Of a DNA stretch of 64,000 nucleotides, positions 1-64,000 are shown in pieces. The translations under genes were made by a program, and so were the position numbers. The stretch's first letter is position 1. Every line of letters starts with the position of its first letter. The notes beneath the pieces were generated by a model. The model had not been told where the DNA came from and did no database searches. It saw only the letters and a program-made list of their open reading frames with translations. This stretch comes from a virus. The DNA is taken from IMG/VR virus record IMGVR_UViG_3300036770_005754, positions 112,559 to 176,558 of that record; one strand, written 5' to 3'.

Positions 1-1989
1 ATTCTGGAAAGCATAAATACCACCAGAAGTCGCTGGATTACCAATTACCGCCGCATCAAGTTCACTCGAAAAAGCAGGATCTAACGGAATACCATTAGCC
101 ATCCCGCGAAAATGTTTCGTGTTGACCTGAGAGGGCAATCTAACAGCGAAAGTAGAAGGATCATTGATGTTGTTGTTCAAGAACGCAGGGCGTTCTTCCC
201 AATTCACATAGGCATTTCCATTCATCCCACCAAGAGAGGTCCCGGGATTGATGAGATTCGCAATGTATCGAGCCTGCCTCTTATCGAAACTGACATCGTC
301 AATAGCTTCGACAGGTTGATTATTCTTATCCAAAACAGTCAAACGATAGCGACCAGCGGAATCGCCAACACCGTCGGTAAACAGTTCGAGAGTAACACTG
401 AAACCAGAAAGCCAAGTCCCAGCAGAGGGCGCGACAAGCCACCCAACCACGTTCTGGAAGTAAGCGGCATCAGCAGCACAATCCGGGCCAAACGGATCGG
501 TCTCGCAAGACAGAGGAGTGGAAGCAGTGATCTCACCAGAATCTGGTAAAACCAGCCTATTGTCGTCGAACCCGCGATACGCTCTCTTATACGGGTAAAC
601 AATATTCAATTCTTCGGCAAACCGCAAGGTCTTCAGATTCGAATAGTTAGCCATTATCTGTAGAGTATCTAATTGACGCCCAACAGATGTTTCAATAACA
701 ACGTGAGTATCCCCACTAGGAACAGTAATAGCATAAGAATTCCATAGCACGCCACCAGCGACCACACCAGCTGCATCTATTACCGCAGCAATAGACTCAG
801 TAGACTGGTTCAAGCCAATGGGAACGTTGAACGAAGCTTCCGTCGTGTTAGACTCGCCAATCAAGTTGATTTTAACACGATTGTTCTGAGTCGTGATATT
901 GTAAGGGCCAGGATCAAGACCGAGCAAGTAAGATCTTGGAATATCCCAAGCGTATTGCTCAGTACCACACTCAAGAGCCCAGCCTTGAGTAGACATCAAC
1001 TGAATACGCTCGCCTGCGACAGTACTTCTGATCTGCGGGATCGTTGAACCATCTTCCATGGTATATTCGATGAAGATATAATCTTCACTACCAAGAAGCG
1101 CATTGGCCGCAGTGATGAAAGAATCGACCGTCGTATATGTCGCGAGCGGCATCGTATAAGTCGTCGGAGACAGATTACCATCAACAGCGATCGAGAACGA
1201 ACGATTATTCGGAGCAGCACTCCAAATGAACGTATCATTCTCATCGATCTCACCTGAAGAAACAGAGATCTCCAGAGTTAGACCATCACCAATGGAAATC
1301 GCATCAGAGGTCCCGTCTCCGTTACTATCTGCAAAATAGCCCTCGGCGACTATTGAACCGTCACTATTTCTAACGACCTGATAACCAGCGCCCACAAATT
1401 GAGCATCTTCTGACAAATTGGGTGCCGATGTGATAACCATCACCCACGACTCGTCGGCGGAACCAGTGTAAACGCCAGTCAAAGTCCCAGAGGCGGATGT
1501 TGGACCATCTGTAGATGAAAGGTCAGCATCGCTATATTCCACAACACTTGTTGATGCATTATGGAAAGTGAGTGGTGTTGGGTTATTGTCGACACCGTCC
1601 CCAACAGCACGCAAATTGATTCTACCATAATCAATGCCCGTAAAGAGAGGAACTCGGCCCCACCCTTTACCACGACCACCAGATGTGTCAATACAGATAT
1701 CAGACAATTCCTGAGGCTGACCATCTTCGCATTCGACGCCCACTCTCATAACATATGCCGCGTTGCCTTCTTCAAGGTATGACAACACAGCATACATCAG
1801 ATAGCTCTCAGGGAATGGCTCCCCAAAAGTCTCTATGGCTTGCGTGGAGTTCGTGATTAAAATCGGAGTGTTCAGAGGGCCTTTCTTAGCGGTCCCAATA
1901 AACCCGGGCCGAAGCGGGCCAACGGCTGTTGGCAGTACGCTGATGTCAATTTCTCTTGGGAAAACGCCGGGGCTTAAGAACACTGTCAT
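1..1989 (-). CDS. Contractile tail sheath protein (partial, C-terminus beyond left edge)
   Basis: An open frame of 663 codons runs from an ATG at 1989 off the left end without a stop. The N-terminus reads MTVFLSPGVFPREIDIS, followed by a GFIGTAKKGP stretch, a threonine/asparagine strand and an ETFGEP...SYLMYAVLSYLEEGN segment ending in AYVMRV. This pattern is typical of T4 gp18-type sheath proteins, where it forms the N-terminal domain of the contractile sheath. It is the first gene of a minus-strand structural run and implies a myovirus. The sheath polymerises around the tail tube and contracts on infection. The C-terminal sheath domain lies mostly at the left edge and is incomplete, so full length is unknown. 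Frame was read by hand from the complement; family call is from recall of sheath sequences. Confidence 0.88.
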   Translation of the reverse strand, partial: MTVFLSPGVFPREIDISVLPTAVGPLRPGFIGTAKKGPLNTPILITNSTQAIETFGEPFPESYLMYAVLSYLEEGNAAYVMRVGVECEDGQPQELSDICIDTSGGRGKGWGRVPLFTGIDYGRINLRAVGDGVDNNPTPLTFHNASTSVVEYSDADLSSTDGPTSASGTLTGVYTGSADESWVMVITSAPNLSEDAQFVGAGYQVVRNSDGSIVAEGYFADSNGDGTSDAISIGDGLTLEISVSSGEIDENDTFIWSAAPNNRSFSIAVDGNLSPTTYTMPLATYTTVDSFITAANALLGSEDYIFIEYTMEDGSTIPQIRSTVAGERIQLMSTQGWALECGTEQYAWDIPRSYLLGLDPGPYNITTQNNRVKINLIGESNTTEASFNVPIGLNQSTESIAAVIDAAGVVAGGVLWNSYAITVPSGDTHVVIETSVGRQLDTLQIMANYSNLKTLRFAEELNIVYPYKRAYRGFDDNRLVLPDSGEITASTPLSCETDPFGPDCAADAAYFQNVVGWLVAPSAGTWLSGFSVTLELFTDGVGDSAGRYRLTVLDKNNQPVEAIDDVSFDKRQARYIANLINPGTSLGGMNGNAYVNWEERPAFLNNNINDPSTFAVRLPSQVNTKHFRGMANGIPLDPAFSSELDAAVIGNPATSGGIYAFQN

Positions 1990-21705: not shown

Positions 21706-22557
21706 TCAGAAACCATGAATCAGCTGTAAGCCCTGCTCCCTATCAGTCCTCAGAGCGACCTTGCTCACACCTGTAGCCCTCAAATTCACTTCCAAACCAT
21801 CATTAGCTTCAAGACTAGTCGGAATATAACTAGTCAACTCCTTATCAGACCAATGCATATGTGTCCCGAGCATCTCAGGAAACCGCAACCGCCATTTATT
21901 ATGAAGATATCTCAAATATGGCCAGTATTTACCAGACATACTGGCAGAATACTTCCCATAATGGACAATAGGCAAATGAGCACAATAAACCTTATAAGCA
22001 GCAGCACGAGCCTGTAAACACATATCGACACCATAAAAATGGAAACCATGAAACATAGAATCAAACCTTAAACCGGTCCTTTTGTTGACAGCTATCAAGC
22101 ACTCGTCAGCACAATGAACAGTCGTTATATCCTTAATACCATCCCAATAAGGCGGCTTACCAATATTCTCATCACTATCCCAAACAGACCCAACAGCAAC
22201 AGTATCAACATCAAGAGAACCGCCCCACCGACCTATGTCTTTCCTACCATACTTCAGTGAAATACCAGCAGTACCAATGATACCCCACTCATCAGGAATA
22301 ACACTAATAATATCGCTCAATATATAGAACCAATCAAACAACAATCTAACATCCTGATGAGCAAATATTACTACATCTGATCTGGCTACATCCATACCAA
22401 TATTCAAAGCATTGCTGGCAGAATATCTGTTGCCATTGTTGATAATGGGTATAATCTCAATATCATGCCCACTGCGGCAAGCATTCATAGAACTGAGAAG
22501 ACATTTCTCAAACACGTCAGGCCTGGAAACACAGCAAACAATCGAAAAATCAGGCAT
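21706..22557 (-). CDS. Family 2-type glycosyltransferase
   Basis: A 283-residue GT-A protein. It starts FSIVCCVSRPDVFEKCLLSS, a typical first strand-helix of GT2 enzymes, with IIPIINNGNRYSASNALNIGM (nucleotide-sugar binding strand and helix) and VVIFAHQDVRLLFDW, where the acidic HQDV replaces the DxD metal motif. A second acidic cluster FYGVDMCLQARAAAY and a His (PIVHYGK) follow as in related enzymes. It transfers a sugar from a nucleotide donor, in the cytoplasm. Divergent from the plus-strand genes at 22588. Confidence 0.7.
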   Translation of the reverse strand: MPDFSIVCCVSRPDVFEKCLLSSMNACRSGHDIEIIPIINNGNRYSASNALNIGMDVARSDVVIFAHQDVRLLFDWFYILSDIISVIPDEWGIIGTAGISLKYGRKDIGRWGGSLDVDTVAVGSVWDSDENIGKPPYWDGIKDITTVHCADECLIAVNKRTGLRFDSMFHGFHFYGVDMCLQARAAAYKVYCAHLPIVHYGKYSASMSGKYWPYLRYLHNKWRLRFPEMLGTHMHWSDKELTSYIPTSLEANDGLEVNLRATGVSKVALRTDREQGLQLIHGF

Positions 22558-35034: not shown

Positions 35035-35318
35035 TATTCGACCACTCTCTCAGGTTTCCATGCATCTCGATTGAAAATGGTAGTAGTCGACCCAACTGTT
35101 GCAACTGGCCTAGCTTTATTTAATACATCTTTTGATTTCTCCGATATAGTATCATCAACGAACCTATTGAAACCGGAGCTATCAGAATTCGCGTAGCCAG
35201 CATTATCACTAGTCTGAATGTGTTGGCGGCGCTTCTTGTGAAGCCTCTTCTTTGCTTTGACGGAAGCCTTCTTCCTGATCTTCTGTCTGATTTTTTCTTG
35301 CTGTTGTTTCTTTGACAT
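35034..35318 (-). CDS. Small basic protein overlapping the polymerase 3' end
   Basis: A 94-residue protein with an extremely basic N-terminus (QEKIRQKIRKKASVKAKKR, then HKKRR) and a neutral C-terminus (STTTIFNRDAWKPERVVE). Its first 110 bases lie in another frame inside the polymerase gene. Stop overlaps the next start. The basic arm could bind nucleic acid. The dual-coded stretch is long for a phage. Confidence 0.6.
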   Translation of the reverse strand: MSKKQQQEKIRQKIRKKASVKAKKRLHKKRRQHIQTSDNAGYANSDSSGFNRFVDDTISEKSKDVLNKARPVATVGSTTTIFNRDAWKPERVVE

Positions 35319-36522
35319 TCACAAAGCCCTTTTCTCTATATATCCTATAAAGTTTCCATTTCTTCCATCTCTTACCAATACTGACCTGCAATGGGAAAGC
35401 AGGGTTATAATCCAAAACGCCGGAAAACGGGTGAAGCATTATCGGTGCTATTATCTCAATAATAGCTTTCACATCATCAGGCGAACACGAGACAACCAAA
35501 CAGTCATGTATCTCGGTAATCAACTTGTTTGGGACTCTGTCCCAAATCCTTCTCAGTACTAATTGCATTGCGTGTGCTACAGAACCCTGCATTATACCAT
35601 TTAGAACAGCCAACTCATTTTTAGCCTGTGACAATCTGAAACTGCGATTAAGTATCGTCTTTAAAGGTTTCCCTTCGCTGGCTATCCCCTTGCACCTATG
35701 AATCCATTTACCTAATCGCTTGTATACGCCAGACAAGGCAACACTATTGAAATCCATTGAGTTTATGGACTTCAATAAATACTTTTTACATTCTTCTCGG
35801 TCGATGACCTCATCTGATTTGTTGCTGCTATTCAACTCATTCATTAACTTTGTGTATGGGTCGGAATCTTCGAATGCTTGTTGTAATTCTAAATCCTGAG
35901 ATATTATTGATGCTACACGAATATCAGCACATATCCAGTCGAAGTGGATCATTACATCATGTTCTTGCCCGCCTTGTGGCGTCACATGATAATCCTCAGA
36001 AAGACCTTGTATATTGAACCCTACCGACTTACTTCTACCGGAAAATGTTTTCTGTGACCATTTAGGTTGGACGGGATGATGATTTATCAGCAGGCCGATA
36101 TCTTCAAGATCTTGGTAAACGACAGCGGCTTGTGCGAATATTTTCTGATATTCTTGGATTTCCACTGTGCTTAATTTTTCTAAAATTCTGCGAATTTTAG
36201 AATGATCCGCTTCTGGATCGACCGACGGTTTAAGGTCGCCAAGGTGCATGTCATATACATTCCATTCTCTATGGTCTCTTGGCAAATTATATGCTAATAT
36301 GTGCGATTTGAAATCGGATGTAATAATTTTCCGTCTTTTCGAGTTCGCCTTTATTATTATGTCTCTTATTGCTTTTTTAGTAGTATCAATTTTTTTAATG
36401 GTTTTACCAGCACCTGGCCTGTATAAATCACACACTCTAATAATATCGCCATCTTTAATCCCAGTACAACGGGGCCGCCCAGTTTTATTATCGAATATTG
36501 TGTAAATGCATAGACTGCTCAT
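35209..36522 (-). CDS. Short family A DNA polymerase
   Basis: A 437-residue polymerase, about half the usual PolA length. Motif A is FDWICADIRVAS (Asp195; the usual Glu steric gate is Asp200). Motif C is ITEIHDCLVVS (His339-Asp340). Thumb/palm pieces GRSKSVGFNIQ and NGIMQGSVAHAMQ are clear. The finger (O-helix) motif, normally R-x-x-x-K-x-x-x-F-x-x-x-Y-G, reads SINSMDFNSVALSG, so Lys, Phe and Tyr seem replaced. Residues 1-130 resemble a decayed 3'-5' exonuclease domain (SDFKSHILAYNLP...VYDMHL) without its acidic set. It likely replicates the phage DNA or is a reduced partner. The last 36 codons overlap the next gene. Confidence 0.8.
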   Translation of the reverse strand: MSSLCIYTIFDNKTGRPRCTGIKDGDIIRVCDLYRPGAGKTIKKIDTTKKAIRDIIIKANSKRRKIITSDFKSHILAYNLPRDHREWNVYDMHLGDLKPSVDPEADHSKIRRILEKLSTVEIQEYQKIFAQAAVVYQDLEDIGLLINHHPVQPKWSQKTFSGRSKSVGFNIQGLSEDYHVTPQGGQEHDVMIHFDWICADIRVASIISQDLELQQAFEDSDPYTKLMNELNSSNKSDEVIDREECKKYLLKSINSMDFNSVALSGVYKRLGKWIHRCKGIASEGKPLKTILNRSFRLSQAKNELAVLNGIMQGSVAHAMQLVLRRIWDRVPNKLITEIHDCLVVSCSPDDVKAIIEIIAPIMLHPFSGVLDYNPAFPLQVSIGKRWKKWKLYRIYREKGFVNVKETTARKNQTEDQEEGFRQSKEEASQEAPPTHSD

Positions 36523-57206: not shown

Positions 57207-58517
57207 CTATTTGGCACTTGGTACCATCCCACAAGCAAGCATGTTTATCTTGATGGTCTCTTTGTGATTTTTGACAGCTCGCGGTGTTATCCCCATGAAT
57301 TGTGCTATGTGGTTAATGCAAGCTTTGTTGTCTCCGTATTGGTCACTAAATCCTCTATATGAATCGCCTCTACATGACCAGATATCAAAAATCTTCCGGC
57401 ATTCTTCATTCGGCAATGATCTTCTGACTGCTGTTATGGCGTCCTCTGCCTCAATCATTGCTGTGTGGTCCTCTCGCATTGTATCTCTCCTATCGTCAGT
57501 TATGTCAGAGATTTCGAATTGGTCGTTTTCATTATCAGATCCCGAATGACTCCCATTTTCAGTCATTATAACGTGTTCTGGTTTGATGACATCCGCTGTT
57601 ATGTAAGGTGCTGCGGTGTTCACTAGGACTTTGATATTGTCTTCGTCAAATTCTACTACTACGCCATTAGCTTTGGCTTTTTCCAATATTGCTATGAATT
57701 CTGACGTTACCTCAGGAGGCGTCCTATTCGTACCTATCCTGATATGATATTTTCCTAGTTCCGGTTGCGTTTTATTACAGTAGTTGTAGCTTAGCTTATA
57801 TGAGTCGCAAACGGATATTATCTCTTGTACTATTATTCTGTCTGCTCTGTCTGAGATCGTTTGTGGTTTTTTCTTGTGTTCTACTCGACCGTTTTCTTTT
57901 AAGATCTGTCTGAAGTAGTTCCACACGAACTCAGTGAAAAATTTTACTAGCTGTCTGTCGTCTGTTAGGACTGCATCTGGATTATTGTATGCTCTTTCCC
58001 CCGCTATTGGCGTTATTGGGGTCGTACATTTTGGAGATGCTTGCCTCTCTGTAAAATCCTTGTATGAATCTTGAAAAATCTGATTATCGACATATTGGCC
58101 TTTTGAGAATTTAGTATCACCTGGGTCTATGATTAGGACTTGGTTGCAGTTTGGACAGACCGGGTATTGTCTGTCCATCATGATTTGGCGACCTTTTCTT
58201 GTGTCGTATGAGCTGGCATCGCATGCTATACACTTGAATGTGTATTTTCGATGATAGAGGAGACTTACTGTGGCTCTCCAGATAGCTATGTTGAATTCTT
58301 CTTCTGCGATGCTCCTATCGTCTCTGTAGTCTGCGCTTATTGTATTTCCAAGTTCCGTAACGAATTTGTTCTTGTGTCTTTTAATTTCCGAGTTATCTGA
58401 TACTTTTACCATTACGTCGGAGACTCGTTCTCTTTCGGATTCTGTTAGGTTGGCCATTGTGACATTTGCGAGTGATCCTCTTAACAGTAATTCTGGCATC
58501 TGGCGAACGATCGGCAT
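57207..58517 (-). CDS. Sigma-like factor with zinc-finger insert
   Basis: A 436-residue protein with GGAG six bases before the ATG. Region-2-like parts are IAEEEFNIAIWRATVSLLY and VKFFTEFVWNYFRQILKE. Between them a zinc finger, CIACDASS... and YPVCPNCNQVL, is inserted. The C-terminus has a helix-turn-helix, CINHIAQFMGITPRAVKNH, resembling sigma region 4. A central region (VIVEFDEDNIKVLV-like strand) is of unknown type. It is divergent from the gp55-like gene over a shared palindrome. It could be a phage sigma factor, or another HTH regulator. Confidence 0.5.
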   Translation of the reverse strand: MPIVRQMPELLLRGSLANVTMANLTESERERVSDVMVKVSDNSEIKRHKNKFVTELGNTISADYRDDRSIAEEEFNIAIWRATVSLLYHRKYTFKCIACDASSYDTRKGRQIMMDRQYPVCPNCNQVLIIDPGDTKFSKGQYVDNQIFQDSYKDFTERQASPKCTTPITPIAGERAYNNPDAVLTDDRQLVKFFTEFVWNYFRQILKENGRVEHKKKPQTISDRADRIIVQEIISVCDSYKLSYNYCNKTQPELGKYHIRIGTNRTPPEVTSEFIAILEKAKANGVVVEFDEDNIKVLVNTAAPYITADVIKPEHVIMTENGSHSGSDNENDQFEISDITDDRRDTMREDHTAMIEAEDAITAVRRSLPNEECRKIFDIWSCRGDSYRGFSDQYGDNKACINHIAQFMGITPRAVKNHKETIKINMLACGMVPSAK

Positions 58518-58561: not shown

Positions 58562-58584
58562 TGATCAATAATCCGTATTGATCA
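58562..58584. promoter_or_regulatory. Palindromic operator-like site between two sigma-like genes
   Basis: A perfect 9-bp inverted repeat TGATCAATA / TATTGATCA with a 5-base spacer (58571-58575), located about 45 bases from the minus-strand start (58517) and 39 bases from the plus-strand start (58623). AT-rich and symmetrical, it has the look of a dimeric repressor site, or would form a hairpin in either leader. Confidence 0.6.
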
Positions 58585-58622
58585 TTTTCATTGGGTTCGA
58601 TTCTTGTCGCAGGAGGAAAACG

Positions 58623-59339
58623 ATGGCTAGGTATTGTGATTCTAAAGTTCTTGAGAAAAATTGGTTTCATTGGCTGTTGTCCTCATCAACCCCTGATCTT
58701 GAAAGATTCAGAGAATCTGGCGTACTATGGACAAAAGTAATTGATGAAACTAAAGGTAAAAAGAATTTACCAAATCCCATGAGCCCATTGAAGATGCACT
58801 GTGTAGCCACTGCGACACCAATCTATTTTAAAAGTGAGTGTGGTGCCATACAACCAAGCGATATGACGGCGGATCTAATATCATTCAATAATTTAAGCCT
58901 CCTTTCTGATTTCAAAGGGAATCATTCCACTCAAACTGGTACCACGATTTCTGAATTAATCGCTGAAAATTATATCCTTGAATTGCCGACAGAAAAAACG
59001 TGGCATGCTATGCTGAATGATGTCAACAAAATGTGCGACGGCATCGCCGCAAAGTTCAATCAACCAAATGAAGATGAGCACGCTGAACTAGCCAATGAAG
59101 CCCTTGTTCAAGTCGCCAAAAAACTGGCTGCAAAGAAACTGGTCTACACACCCGGAAGAGCACCTGTTTTCAATCTTTTAACGACAACAATCATACGATG
59201 CATGTACAGCATAATGAACAAAAGAACCAACCAACGCAAGGGGTTGCAAAAATACATGAACGAAATTTATCTTGGACAGCAATGGTCGCCCGAAGGAGAT
59301 CAAGCCAATTATCACAACCTACAAACCGTCGAGTATTAA
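58623..59339 (+). CDS. gp55-like late sigma factor
   Basis: About 238 residues from ATG 58623, which has a near-ideal AGGAGG. The C-terminal part has ELANEALVQVAKKLAAKKL, YTPGRAPVFNLLTTTIIRC and MYSIMNKRTNQRKGLQKY, the order seen in sigma region 2 of T4 gp55: a helix with a conserved E-x-A, a P-x-x-x-F-x-[YL] turn and an I-x-R helix ending in basic residues. gp55 directs host RNA polymerase to late promoters. The N-terminal 130 residues are unfamiliar. Confidence 0.6.
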   Translation: MARYCDSKVLEKNWFHWLLSSSTPDLERFRESGVLWTKVIDETKGKKNLPNPMSPLKMHCVATATPIYFKSECGAIQPSDMTADLISFNNLSLLSDFKGNHSTQTGTTISELIAENYILELPTEKTWHAMLNDVNKMCDGIAAKFNQPNEDEHAELANEALVQVAKKLAAKKLVYTPGRAPVFNLLTTTIIRCMYSIMNKRTNQRKGLQKYMNEIYLGQQWSPEGDQANYHNLQTVEY

Positions 59340-59768: not shown

Positions 59769-59875
59769 TTTTACTTCCTGTATTTGAGTTGATTATGCTC
59801 TGAGTAGTTGGCTATCTTCGAATAATTGTATCTTCCTTGTAAAATACGCTGTCGCAAGTGGTAACGCATGATTTT

Positions 59876-59901
59876 CCAGTAAAAATAAATTATTTTACTG
59901 G
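59876..59901 (+). promoter_or_regulatory. Hairpin next to ribosome site
   Basis: CCAGTAAAA (59876-59884) pairs perfectly with TTTTACTGG (59893-59901), loop of 8 bases, in the leader of the gene at 59909. The last two stem bases are the GG of the GGAG ribosome site, so folding would compete with initiation. It may also be a processing site. Confidence 0.55.
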
Positions 59902-59908
59902 AGATAGC

Positions 59909-60835
59909 ATGAGACCACAATTAATACGGCAAAACATTACTATATTGACACCCAAAACTGTAAAAGTAGTAGTGCAGCCATCGAGCAACAGATCAGTTAG
60001 CTTGCAACATGTAAAACAAGTAAAGCAAGTATGTGTAAAGCCGACGGTAGAAAAGCCAAAACAACTAATACAAAATGCTGCTGTAAGTAACAAAAACATA
60101 CTAAAGAAGAAAGCTACATCTAAAAAGGCAGATGTAAAGTACCTCACGCAGGATATATCATTAGAGTCCTTAAATAAAATAAAAGCAATAAGAAATATTG
60201 GTGTTGGTAAAACACTAGTTATAGTTGGAAATGGCCCGTCAATATTAGAAGCAGAGCTAAACAAATTAAAAAATCAACCAGACATCCATACATTATCAAT
60301 AAATAGACCAGATGAAAGAATCTGGCCAACAACATACTGGTCATTCTTCGATAATTCTCAGATGCGCAGACACGAAAGCATTTGGTCAAGCTACGACGGA
60401 ACGATATTCAATAGTACAGCTATTAAAAAACAGAAACCGAAATCAATGGCCTTTAAAAACATAGGCGGCAAAGGATTCAGCAAAGACGCTTCGAAAGGCA
60501 TCAATATCGGGAGATCTTCAGTATATGCCTCCATGCAGATTGCACTATGGATGAATTATGACAAAATATTCATATTTGGCTGTGATATGAACCCAGAAGG
60601 CTTGGACGGCAAATTACATTTCTACGGCACAAACCCAGACGTAGATCCCAATATCAGAAAAAGTAGATTCAAAGACGAAGCGGAGCATTACATGCATGCG
60701 GCATCGCTATTAACCAGAGAAGAAAAGGAAAAATTCATATTCTGCACAGATTATAACCCATGGGGCTTCATCAAAGAATTCGGGCAAATGAGCCACAAAG
60801 AAGCTGTGAACATAATATTGGAAAACAATCGATGA
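59909..60835 (+). CDS. DUF115/MAF-like protein
   Basis: About 308 residues from ATG 59909. After a basic, low-complexity N-terminal 100 residues comes TLVIVGNGPSILEAELNKLK, SINRPDERIWPTTYWSFFD and SKGINIGRSSVYASMQIAL then DKIFIFGCDMNPEG. This G-N-G-P-S, G-x-S-x-x and I-F-G-x-D-M set is the Rossmann-like core of DUF115/Maf-type proteins, associated with sugar transfer (sialyltransferase-like). The next gene, a PhyH oxygenase, overlaps by ATGA. Confidence 0.65.
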   Translation: MRPQLIRQNITILTPKTVKVVVQPSSNRSVSLQHVKQVKQVCVKPTVEKPKQLIQNAAVSNKNILKKKATSKKADVKYLTQDISLESLNKIKAIRNIGVGKTLVIVGNGPSILEAELNKLKNQPDIHTLSINRPDERIWPTTYWSFFDNSQMRRHESIWSSYDGTIFNSTAIKKQKPKSMAFKNIGGKGFSKDASKGINIGRSSVYASMQIALWMNYDKIFIFGCDMNPEGLDGKLHFYGTNPDVDPNIRKSRFKDEAEHYMHAASLLTREEKEKFIFCTDYNPWGFIKEFGQMSHKEAVNIILENNR

Positions 60836-61548
60836 TAACTGTAGAAGATATTACATATTACAGCGACCACGGGTATATCATAAAAGAAAATATAATAGAT
60901 AATTCTACATTGGATTCGGCACTATTGGATACAAAATCAGGCGGCAACCCACTAGACAAATGGAAATATGGTAAAGTTAATGGGATATCTAAACTAGCAT
61001 CGTATGAACCAATAATTAATATTCTAAGAGGTTTATATGGTTTAGAACCTTTTCCATTCCAGACTTTGAACTTCGACAGATCTCCTGGTATCAATATACA
61101 TTCTGATACTATACATTTCCATACCGATCCACCCGGGTTGATGTGCGGTGTATGGGTGGCTCTCGAAGACGTGACGCCAGAAAATGGCCCTCTGGTTTAT
61201 TACCCTGGTTCGCACTTAACGCAGGTTATAACTCTAGAAAGCCTGGGATTAACACCATCTATGGGTCAATGGTTATCGAATCTCGGTGCGTATTCCATGT
61301 TCTTGGCTGAACATAGTGAACATATGCGTTTTGAAACATTGATATGTAAACGAGGAACTGTATTGATTTGGGATGCCAATTTGATGCACAGATCTCTTCA
61401 CCCAAGAGAAGGCACCACCAGAGCTTCTCAAGTAACCCATTATTATTTCTACACAGAAGGTGTTAAGTATTTAGTACCTGCGTACGGCAAGGACTGTATT
61501 AAAAATGAAGTGTTTCGGTTCGCGGATTTTCTCAATTTTTGGATCTAG
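60832..61548 (+). CDS. PhyH-type 2-oxoglutarate dioxygenase
   Basis: About 238 residues from ATG 60832 (overlaps the upstream stop). H97 and D99 in IHFHTDPPGLMCGVWVALED, then NGPLVYYPGSH, and a distal His with following Arg in ANLMHRSLHPREG...R. This is the phytanoyl-CoA dioxygenase pattern. P-G-S-H is the family signature. The substrate is unknown: the family acts on small molecules and some members hydroxylate nucleic acid bases. It is the second oxygenase of the window (the other at 29970). Confidence 0.75.
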   Translation: MITVEDITYYSDHGYIIKENIIDNSTLDSALLDTKSGGNPLDKWKYGKVNGISKLASYEPIINILRGLYGLEPFPFQTLNFDRSPGINIHSDTIHFHTDPPGLMCGVWVALEDVTPENGPLVYYPGSHLTQVITLESLGLTPSMGQWLSNLGAYSMFLAEHSEHMRFETLICKRGTVLIWDANLMHRSLHPREGTTRASQVTHYYFYTEGVKYLVPAYGKDCIKNEVFRFADFLNFWI

Positions 61549-61551
61549 AAA

Positions 61552-61950
61552 ATGCATAAGGTATACGTCGCTTCCAGTTTAAACAATATCGAGCGAGCGA
61601 AAGAAGTAATCGATAATCTATTATCGACGAACAAGATAAGCGTAACATATGATTGGACAAAACATGGTAGAGTCCATAGTGTGGCAGAAATGCAAGAAAT
61701 ATCATTGTTAGAAACAGAAGGCGTAAAAAATTGTGATACTATTTTAGTAGTCCTTCCTGGTGGCGTTGGCACTCATTTCGAGTTTGGTTACGCATATGCT
61801 CTTGGAAAGAATGTAGTGCTGCTTGAAGAAGTCGATGTGAGGAGGTCGTCATTTTATCACTTGCCGGGAATACATAGTGTTAAGACTTTCGGTGAGGCAC
61901 TTGCCATAATCGAGCGTCTTTCTCTTGAGCATATGCCTCCTTCCATCTGA
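61552..61950 (+). CDS. Nucleoside 2-deoxyribosyltransferase-like protein
   Basis: A 132-residue protein: HKVYVASSLNNIERAKEVID, VTYDWTKHGRVHS, LVVLPGGVGTHFEFGYAYAL and GKNVVLLEE. The Y-V-A-x-S start and P-G-x-x-G-T-x-x-E-x-G-x-A-x-A-x-G-K element are the nucleoside deoxyribosyltransferase/YtoQ-type signature, with a Glu nucleophile. It could exchange or hydrolyse bases of deoxynucleotides. It follows PhyH by three bases and lies 1.7 kb before the PurZ-like gene, so a role in nucleotide supply is likely. Confidence 0.7.
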   Translation: MHKVYVASSLNNIERAKEVIDNLLSTNKISVTYDWTKHGRVHSVAEMQEISLLETEGVKNCDTILVVLPGGVGTHFEFGYAYALGKNVVLLEEVDVRRSSFYHLPGIHSVKTFGEALAIIERLSLEHMPPSI

Positions 61951-61989
61951 TATATGCTCTCAAATCCGTTAATTAAGAATGGGTCGACT

Positions 61990-62652
61990 ATGTTAAACAG
62001 GTTAGAAATCGATGTCCTACAAGCTAACGAACTGTATGAAGCTTCACATTTGACTACAAAGTATAAATTACCAGCAATGGTCGTTCATCAAGACTTAGCA
62101 AGCCAGGCCTACATCACCAGAAACCAACTTGGCGGGAAGTTCAAAATAATCACGCCAGTAGACTGGCCAAAAGGCAATACATTTGGAATGGCAAAATTTC
62201 GAGGCTTACCAACAGATGCATTAGAGAATGACGGATTCGAAATCCTACTCACTGGTGGAAAGAACTTAACTGACACCAGAAATGAAGCAAAAGAATTCAC
62301 TAAATTTGTGAAAGGGCATCTTTCAGAGATGCATGAAGTGAGATTTGTGCTTAATACACTATCAAGGGATGACGAAAATATTAGAGCAATGTGCGAAGCC
62401 CTAAAAGATGTGAGGATGCCATCTTTCTTGAGAAATGATATAAATCTCAAGCCACAAATAGGTAAAGCTAATGTAGAAAAGCACAATGCCTTTATCGCGG
62501 AAGTATCTGCCATATTTAAGGCACCATTTAAAATCTCCGGAAACATTAACAATCTGGAATCTATTAACAATTGCCAGAACGCATCAAGATTCGCCGTTAG
62601 CCTAACTCAAGCCAAGAGTATCATTAAAGAATTCAACGAAACAAAGAGATGA
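61990..62652 (+). CDS. Hypothetical protein, possibly aldolase-barrel-like
   Basis: About 220 residues; ATG 61990 chosen (GGG eight bases upstream), with 61954 as alternative. Segments: LKITPVDWPKGNTFG-like start, FEILLTGGKNLTDTRNEAKE, VRFVLNTLSRDDENIRAMC, FIAEVSAIFKAPFKISGN. The spacing of helices and strands is compatible with a TIM-barrel such as DeoC-like proteins, but no catalytic Lys is certain. Sits in the nucleotide-metabolism-like block. Confidence 0.5.
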   Translation: MLNRLEIDVLQANELYEASHLTTKYKLPAMVVHQDLASQAYITRNQLGGKFKIITPVDWPKGNTFGMAKFRGLPTDALENDGFEILLTGGKNLTDTRNEAKEFTKFVKGHLSEMHEVRFVLNTLSRDDENIRAMCEALKDVRMPSFLRNDINLKPQIGKANVEKHNAFIAEVSAIFKAPFKISGNINNLESINNCQNASRFAVSLTQAKSIIKEFNETKR

Positions 62653-62655
62653 CTG

Positions 62656-63039
62656 ATGACTGTCAAAATAACTGGTGCAAGCGTGAAGCGATTGTTAAAG
62701 GCAATCGAAAGCGTGCAGGATTGGGAAGGCACAGAGGTCGGTGCTGCGATCGAAGATATCGAAGCCCAATTATATCAACCAACGGACAGACAGCTTAATC
62801 TGTTAAAACACGCGTTAGCGATGCACAACGTAAACAAAGGAATTTGGGGATGCGACAACAGATTTACTTGTGGTATGTTTCAACCTGAATATGACGACTG
62901 GTCTGAAATGGTTGAGAAAGGACTAGCTACCATAGATTCAGAAGGAACTACGTGGATTACCTTTAGCGCAACAGAAGCCGGTGCTATCGCAGCCGGATTA
63001 CACAAAGCAGGAATCAAACGAGCATTCAAATCTGAATAA
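62656..63039 (+). CDS. Hypothetical protein
   Basis: A 127-residue protein with helical start (ASVKRLLKAIESVQDWEG) and a middle YQPTDRQLNLLKHALAMHN, then an acidic/aromatic part and FSATEAGAIAAGLHKAGIKR. The P-T-x-x-Q-x-x-x-L-x-x-A pattern is common in small phage proteins of unknown function. Overlaps by nothing; spacing of three bases to the upstream gene. Confidence 0.6.
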   Translation: MTVKITGASVKRLLKAIESVQDWEGTEVGAAIEDIEAQLYQPTDRQLNLLKHALAMHNVNKGIWGCDNRFTCGMFQPEYDDWSEMVEKGLATIDSEGTTWITFSATEAGAIAAGLHKAGIKRAFKSE

Positions 63040-63052
63040 CCAGGAGCAATTG

Positions 63053-63244
63053 ATGTGGAACAATCGCACGATCACCTATACCTATAACATAGGTGATCCT
63101 GTATTAATGAACATAGAGGAGCACCCATGGTACAAGCGTCCAGCGACCATATGTGACATAGGACATACCACGGTAAGAGTAGACTTTGAAGGCACAAAAA
63201 TTTGGGTACCAAACGACTGGATCACACCGCATGACTTTAACTAG
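63053..63244 (+). CDS. Small beta-barrel-like protein
   Basis: A 63-residue protein from ATG 63053, with AGGAG seven bases upstream; an earlier in-frame start would overlap the previous gene. NIGDPVLMNIEEHPWYKRPA then VRVDFEGTKIWVPND is typical of a small SH3-like domain (V-x-x-D-x-x-G-x-x-x-W-V-P). Unknown role. Confidence 0.65.
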   Translation: MWNNRTITYTYNIGDPVLMNIEEHPWYKRPATICDIGHTTVRVDFEGTKIWVPNDWITPHDFN

Positions 63245-63608
63245 ACTATTGGACAGCATAAAGAATGACGCTGACTTGTTGACGCGCGGAGACGCATGGT
63301 TAGAACACGAGAGAGAAGTAGTCTCTTCAGAATTACAATGCAGGGCAGACTATCTTAAAAAAGTCATTGCAGCACAGACGATCAAAAAGATACTGCAGAA
63401 CAAAAATTTAGTGGCAGTACAACACATTTGCAGGAACACTAACAATGAAGCCACCGACGTAGTCATTAAAGTGATGAAACTACCAGATGCCATTAGATCT
63501 ATTGAAGAATCAAATGATATTTTAGATGAGATAAACTCATTGGGACAAATCACAACTTGGAGAGCCGATGGTTACGATATAGCGACATCACGCTCTCTAC
63601 GCAACTAG
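63231..63608 (+). CDS. Hypothetical helical protein
   Basis: About 125 residues from ATG 63231, overlapping the previous gene by 14 bases. Helical (LLDSIKNDADLLTRGDAWLE, QTIKKILQNKNLVAVQHIC, PDAIRSIEESNDILDEINS). No family recognised. Ends 52 bases before the PurZ-like gene. Confidence 0.6.
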   Translation: MTLTRLLDSIKNDADLLTRGDAWLEHEREVVSSELQCRADYLKKVIAAQTIKKILQNKNLVAVQHICRNTNNEATDVVIKVMKLPDAIRSIEESNDILDEINSLGQITTWRADGYDIATSRSLRN

Positions 63609-63660
63609 ACGTATTTTAAGACCTGATCAATCACTTACGGCCAACAATCGGAAGACACAA

Positions 63661-64000
63661 ATGATAAATGGTCATTTTAACGTAGTGACAGATGGACAAT
63701 GGGGAAGCTGCGGCAAAGGCCTAATAGCTACCGCCTTAGCCGACAGATATCGCCCAGAGATGATATCAACTACAAATATGGCTAATGCTGGCCATACAGC
63801 AGTTAACGAGGACGGAAGATCTTTTGTAGCCAAAGCTTTACCGTCATGTTCTATCTTGAAGAGATGGAGAGATGACTACAACCCACACATTTTTCTGGGC
63901 GCATCAAGTGCATTCCACATCGACCAATTGCTAAAAGAGATAGCGGAATGCGGACTTGAATCATCAGGTGATTTAAACCCTGAAAACCGCTTATGGATAC
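63661..64000 (+). CDS. PurZ-like adenylosuccinate synthetase (partial, cut by right edge)
   Basis: 113 residues visible from ATG 63661 (GGAAG upstream). The P-loop is DGQWGSCGKGLIATAL (residues 11-26), where E. coli PurA has QWGDEGKG: the catalytic Asp13 is Ser16 here. NMANAGHTAV (39-48) keeps the His that aids IMP 6-phosphorylation in PurA, and KALPSC matches the L-x-P segment. From memory, Asp-to-Ser (GSxGKG) is the hallmark of phage PurZ, which joins dGMP with aspartate to give the precursor of dZMP (2-aminoadenine nucleotide) in Z-DNA phages. The C-terminal two thirds, including the aspartate-binding loop, are outside the window. Confidence 0.75.
   Translation, partial: MINGHFNVVTDGQWGSCGKGLIATALADRYRPEMISTTNMANAGHTAVNEDGRSFVAKALPSCSILKRWRDDYNPHIFLGASSAFHIDQLLKEIAECGLESSGDLNPENRLWI

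Follow-up and report, generated by a model that had tools for sequence, protein, structure and literature searches.

A Ser-type PurZ of a separate large-phage branch linked to NDT-family and aldolase-fold genes

Results

A Ser-type PurZ frame at the end of a viral record

The DNA analysed here (the window) spans positions 112559-176558 of a virus record of 176,558 bp; it forms the final 64 kb, and its end is the record end. PurZ is the enzyme with which some phages exchange the adenine of their DNA for 2-aminoadenine (Z). The window quite probably carries the gene of an active PurZ that belongs to a separate branch in large phages, with dZTP replacing dATP and a set of NDT-family (nucleoside 2-deoxyribosyltransferase/NMP N-glycosidase) and deoxyribose-phosphate-aldolase (DERA)-fold proteins standing in for the DatZ/MazZ kit. 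The purZ frame (63661..64000, + strand) was assigned by profile matches, alignment and tree, and is uninterrupted from the ATG at 63661 up to the record end, where the contig cuts it. A GGAAG at 63650..63654 (+), read directly 6 nt upstream of the ATG, is its likely ribosome-binding site. The preliminary description of this DNA had proposed a PurZ-like enzyme with an Asp-to-Ser switch, of which one third is visible. The visible part indeed amounts to the 113 N-terminal codons, and the PurZ identity was borne out by profile scores, by the tree and by the residues that contact the substrate. The fragment contains the motif string DGQWGSCGKG...NMANAGHT, and both the alignment and direct reading gave QWGSCGKG for QWGDEGKG together with the retained catalytic His of NAGHT. 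Ser stands in the PurA Asp13 column, adjoining the invariant GKG, with no register shift, so that the refuting case considered earlier, in which another register would bring an Asp to the catalytic site, is dismissed. According to a published survey, this position is Asp in 99% of the PurA group and Ser in 100% of 147 phage PurZ/PurZ0 proteins (PMC12884076).

Profile searches with the fragment gave 29.6 bits for PF00709 (cut-off 27; profile positions 1-94), E = 8e-18 for phrog_1211 ('2-aminooxy adenylosuccinate synthetase') and 5e-19 for the PurZ model NF038379, compared with 3e-10 or weaker for PurA models. The top PDB matches were the PurZ chains of phiVC8 and S-2L, and the tree placed the fragment on its own inside the large-phage PurZ branch with a support of 98/99. 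These results confirm, at the level of sequence, that the window frame is the N-terminal part of a PurZ-type enzyme. A location of the remainder elsewhere in the record was ruled out, as the PF00709 search returned a single place and tblastn with a full PurZ gave no second match in the rest of the record; an exact-match DNA search found no overlapping viral contig that extends the gene. Two thirds of this copy lie beyond the contig end, and it could be damaged.

Full-length relatives form a separate branch on the PurZ side

The missing two thirds were judged from full-length IMG/VR relatives. Twenty such loci, at 45-69% identity, were found; their contigs range from 19 to 408 kb in length, and most exceed 75 kb. 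In the tree, which was midpoint-rooted and has some long branches, the full-length relatives formed their own branch (94/99) beside the PurZ of phiVC8, S-2L and SH-Ab, and grouped with BpsS140 at 99/93, apart from PurZ0 and PurA. By sequence, large-phage PurZ is thus placed as a separate branch within the PurZ side. It shares with phiVC8 and S-2L PurZ (PDB 6fko, 7odx) the Ser switch, the dGMP-pocket residues, the N-F-x-[NQ] motif and the TTVTK loop, whereas the two proteins are about 36% and 33% identical to the window fragment, respectively, and fall on a separate branch.

We compared the contact residues, numbered on S-2L PurZ after a published list (PMC8342488), in 14 branch members of the tree. 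The relatives retained almost every residue with which S-2L PurZ contacts dGMP and ATP in its structure: S23, N49, A50, T132, R146, Q190, R240, V241, TTVT 273-276, R280 and F306 were identical in all 14, N305 was retained in 13 (Thr in locus L015), and position Q308 was Asn, like phiVC8. The full-length relatives have the ATP-type base pocket N-F-x-N/Q (T-F-x-N in L015) and the TTVT aspartate loop, and PurA sequences diverge from S-2L PurZ at S23, T273, F306 and N305. Conversion of dGMP to dSMP by the branch members is well supported by homology. On the NCBI PurZ model the full-length relatives scored 215-241 bits, so that this model would not name them; its 300-bit cut-off, which the short window piece cannot reach, sets a score for a single model and is no biochemical property.

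One branch member, L019, lies on a 43-kb contig. Genes for DUF5664, MazG and a PolA of 649 aa are found near its PurZ, and the PolA resembles the polymerases of PMBT28 (5e-39) and phiVC8 (7e-27); an HD-like match nearby was weak and was not confirmed by Pfam. With this standard Z kit, the link of the branch to Z metabolism does not depend on the large phages. In a further relative (L021:6594-10229), the PurZ frame contains two large intein-like insertions at active-site motifs, one directly after NAGH and the other before CTSRG. Ser-type PurZ relatives were also present on five contigs filed as bacterial genomes (L038-L042); L040 may belong to a prophage or another integrated element, as it lies within a 994-kb contig. 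A PurZ-like protein of the Ser type (L028:8974-10317; GSSGKG, NANASHT) is also encoded by the cultured Flavobacterium phage MaF61 (PQ858689), a myovirus of 168 kb, where it is annotated just as adenosuccinate synthetase, and a term search of the MaF61 paper found no mention of PurZ. The MaF61 protein is a distant, long-branched relative, and the phage differs from the large contigs in having no aldolase-fold gene.

A conserved gene island surrounds purZ

A conserved island with NDT-family and aldolase-fold genes was overlooked in the first reading. In the large contigs its order is cluster 5, cluster 3, cluster 2, NDT-family gene, aldolase-fold gene, two small proteins, purZ, a gene for an epimerase-fold protein, and others. 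In the window, conservation in relatives defines the flanking cluster 5 gene (57207..58517, -) and the cluster 3 gene (58578..59339, +), and the cluster 2 gene (59858..60835, +) has a weak MptE-like match under the Pfam cut-off. They are followed by the 132-aa NDT-family protein (61552..61950, +), recognised by PF05014, and by a 232-aa TIM-barrel protein of predicted deoxyribose-phosphate-aldolase fold (61954..62652, +). Two small conserved proteins complete the row, cluster 10 (62981..63244, +), with a zinc-ribbon-like N terminus in relatives, and cluster 7 (63231..63608, +), known from conservation in relatives and located just 5' of purZ. A PhyH-type dioxygenase gene also sits inside the island (60760-61545, +) and has no counterpart there in the compared relatives.

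The aldolase-fold gene was carried by 18 viral contigs, and a Ser-type PurZ adjoined it in every one. On contig L072 the same island holds a PurZ that is about 31% identical and still has Ser (GSSGKG), which indicates that a Ser-type PurZ was kept. In L003 the frame of the NDT gene shares 8 bases with that of the aldolase-fold gene, an arrangement consistent with their co-expression.

The NDT-family and aldolase-fold proteins

The NDT protein matched PF05014 with 35.5 bits (cut-off 28.8), and its best profile match was the CMP N-glycosidase MilB (5e-7). It contains Tyr5, Asp62 and Glu77 (in GTHFEFG), together with a conserved YDWTxHG. The profile match in the comparison with DmtZ was weak (5e-4); compared with the DmtZ triad Tyr6/Asn77/Glu103 and Asp12, the Tyr and Glu are kept, Asp62 probably occupies the Asn77 site, and the residue at the Asp12 position is not Asp. 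An NDT-family gene was present in 12 of the 14 PurZ records searched, and 12 of 26 loci of the family had no PurZ within the fetched flanks. We do not regard the gene as a certain DmtZ, because the family also occurs in phages with no PurZ nearby and has no Asp12. By analogy, the enzyme is probably a dNMP N-glycosidase that would destroy dAMP and release deoxyribose 5-phosphate.

The AF2 model of the aldolase-fold protein had a pLDDT of 86 and a pTM of 0.84. In a Foldseek search with this model, hits 1-49 were annotated aldolases, nearly all DERA (E 1.5e-11, TM 0.75). At the sequence level the protein had no significant similarity to PDB entries, and its link to DeoC/DERA (2-deoxyribose-5-phosphate aldolase) is the predicted fold. 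DERA residues were mapped onto it by strand order or position and by spacing. The second active-site Lys is kept as Lys193, whereas the position of the Schiff-base Lys on strand 6 is Arg160 in all 13 aldolase-fold sequences. This Lys-to-Arg change argues against ordinary aldolase chemistry, and a working aldolase was ruled out because the Schiff-base Lys is missing. The protein encoded 3' of purZ in relatives was modelled as a barrel of the sugar-phosphate epimerase type.

DatZ, MazZ, dUTPase and polymerase genes

The preliminary description had recognised neither mazZ nor datZ in the window, and this now extends to the whole 176-kb record and nearly all relatives searched. A DatZ profile had no match in the record or in 13 relatives, with phiVC8 as a positive control, and the record yielded no HD gene. 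MazG and DUF5664 were absent from the record and from 12 of 13 relatives (the exception being L019); DUF550 likewise had no match in the record or in 12 of 13 relatives, a search that says little, as no control was positive. DatZ is also missing from PurZ0 phages, which shows that it is not required for a Z genome (PMC12884076). A dUTPase gene is located at positions 21733-22122 of the record and also occurs in 9 of 13 relatives.

A short, divergent family A DNA polymerase of 436 aa (35209..36522, -; PF00476, 6e-11), conserved in relatives, is the candidate replicative polymerase that would need to use dZTP. The preliminary description had the polymerase working on Z-DNA, should the whole genome replace A with Z, which is an inference. 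The enzyme is not assigned as DpoZ, as no similarity to phiVC8 DpoZ was detectable, and tblastn against 50,697 phage records gave no match at E 1e-3. Elsewhere in the window, the protein encoded at 1-1989 (-) had a few weak matches, to proteins with tail sheath or structural annotations in Streptococcus phage GXN1 and in Yersinia phages YerA41 and GN1, which would fit a phage with a contractile tail that is remote from the known genera.

Discussion

Family knowledge and the conserved contacts suggest PurZ chemistry for the window gene: the enzyme would join aspartate to dGMP using ATP (or dATP), and host enzymes would turn the resulting N6-succino-2-amino-dAMP into dZTP, to be incorporated instead of dATP. 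In place of the DatZ/MazZ kit, the NDT-family enzyme would break down dAMP, its presumed substrate, and free deoxyribose 5-phosphate; the DERA-fold protein may bind or process this sugar phosphate, a guess from fold and linkage. PurZ0 phages convert dATP to adenine via a dUTPase homologue and the NDT-family DmtZ, which acts on dAMP (Poubanne et al. 2026; PMC12884076). Since the dUTPase and NDT families are common to the large phages and the PurZ0 phages, a similar dATP drain can be proposed, to which the dUTPase, encoded in most records, would contribute. Replacement of A by Z throughout the virion DNA is likely on this scheme.

The branch differs from the known systems in several respects. 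The genomes of phiVC8 and S-2L are 39-45 kb and carry DatZ (and MazZ in S-2L), whereas the present branch is found on large contigs without them. The PurZ0 phages (Gordonia phage Ghobes and phages of Arthrobacter, which carry DmtZ and DutZ) likewise combine a dUTPase gene with a gene of the NDT family close to purZ, and DatZ was not found in Ghobes, as in the window record. However, PurZ0 has GSEAKG and no N-F-x-N, and both the tree and the motifs set the window enzyme apart from it; DmtZ is longer than the window NDT protein; and the DERA-fold gene, which adjoins the NDT gene in the present island, was not found in Ghobes.

A drifted motif in an IMP-using phage PurA that supplies adenylate would account for the phmmer result of L007, which gave archaeal PurA (6e-35) and PurZ (4e-34 to 1e-33) as nearly equal matches, and for the slightly higher score of L002 on the archaeal PurA model. 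However, the Asp is Ser in all aligned branch members, their TTVT and N-F-x-N (T-F-x-N in L015) differ from the PurA residues, and the tree position and the Z kit of L019 point the same way, so that a PurA is very improbable. Alternatively, PurZ could be active while Z replaces part of the adenine or dZTP stays minor, dATP being poorly removed by a phage whose polymerase has no preference for Z. The missing DatZ and MazG and a polymerase unlike DpoZ would fit such an outcome, but S-2L also has no DpoZ and still replaces all A, its PurZ itself uses up dATP (PMC8342488), and the NDT and dUTPase genes could lead dATP to adenine in the way known from PurZ0 phages; we therefore consider partial replacement unlikely.

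The two sugar-phosphate-type TIM barrels that flank purZ also allow the thought that the island builds a different modified nucleotide, with the PurZ product or adenine further processed and a final base or sugar other than plain 2-aminoadenine deoxyribose. No pathway of this kind is known, though, and the DERA-fold and epimerase-fold proteins, whose predicted active sites are altered, may be catabolic or structural, which makes this reading improbable. We thus favour an active PurZ with dZTP replacing dATP.

A literature search, which covered few subscription papers and no bioRxiv preprints, found no account of the large-phage PurZ branch or its island; the branch seems so far undescribed, absence from the literature being weak evidence. 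Tentatively, we propose that very large phages (contigs to 408 kb) make Z-DNA via a third PurZ branch and remove dATP by a glycosidase and a repurposed aldolase-fold partner handling deoxyribose 5-phosphate, not by DatZ, as an independent solution. Genome sizes of the reference Z phages in the comparison are about 38-55 kb, and most of these phages carry DatZ/MazZ or DutZ/DmtZ. As the cultured MaF61 encodes a Ser-type PurZ, it already offers a way to test for Z-DNA in a large phage. A PurZ branch whose phages exceed the reference phages several-fold in size, with distinct and strictly linked genes, would mean that a Z system was put together independently once more, and the island names two new candidate enzymes.
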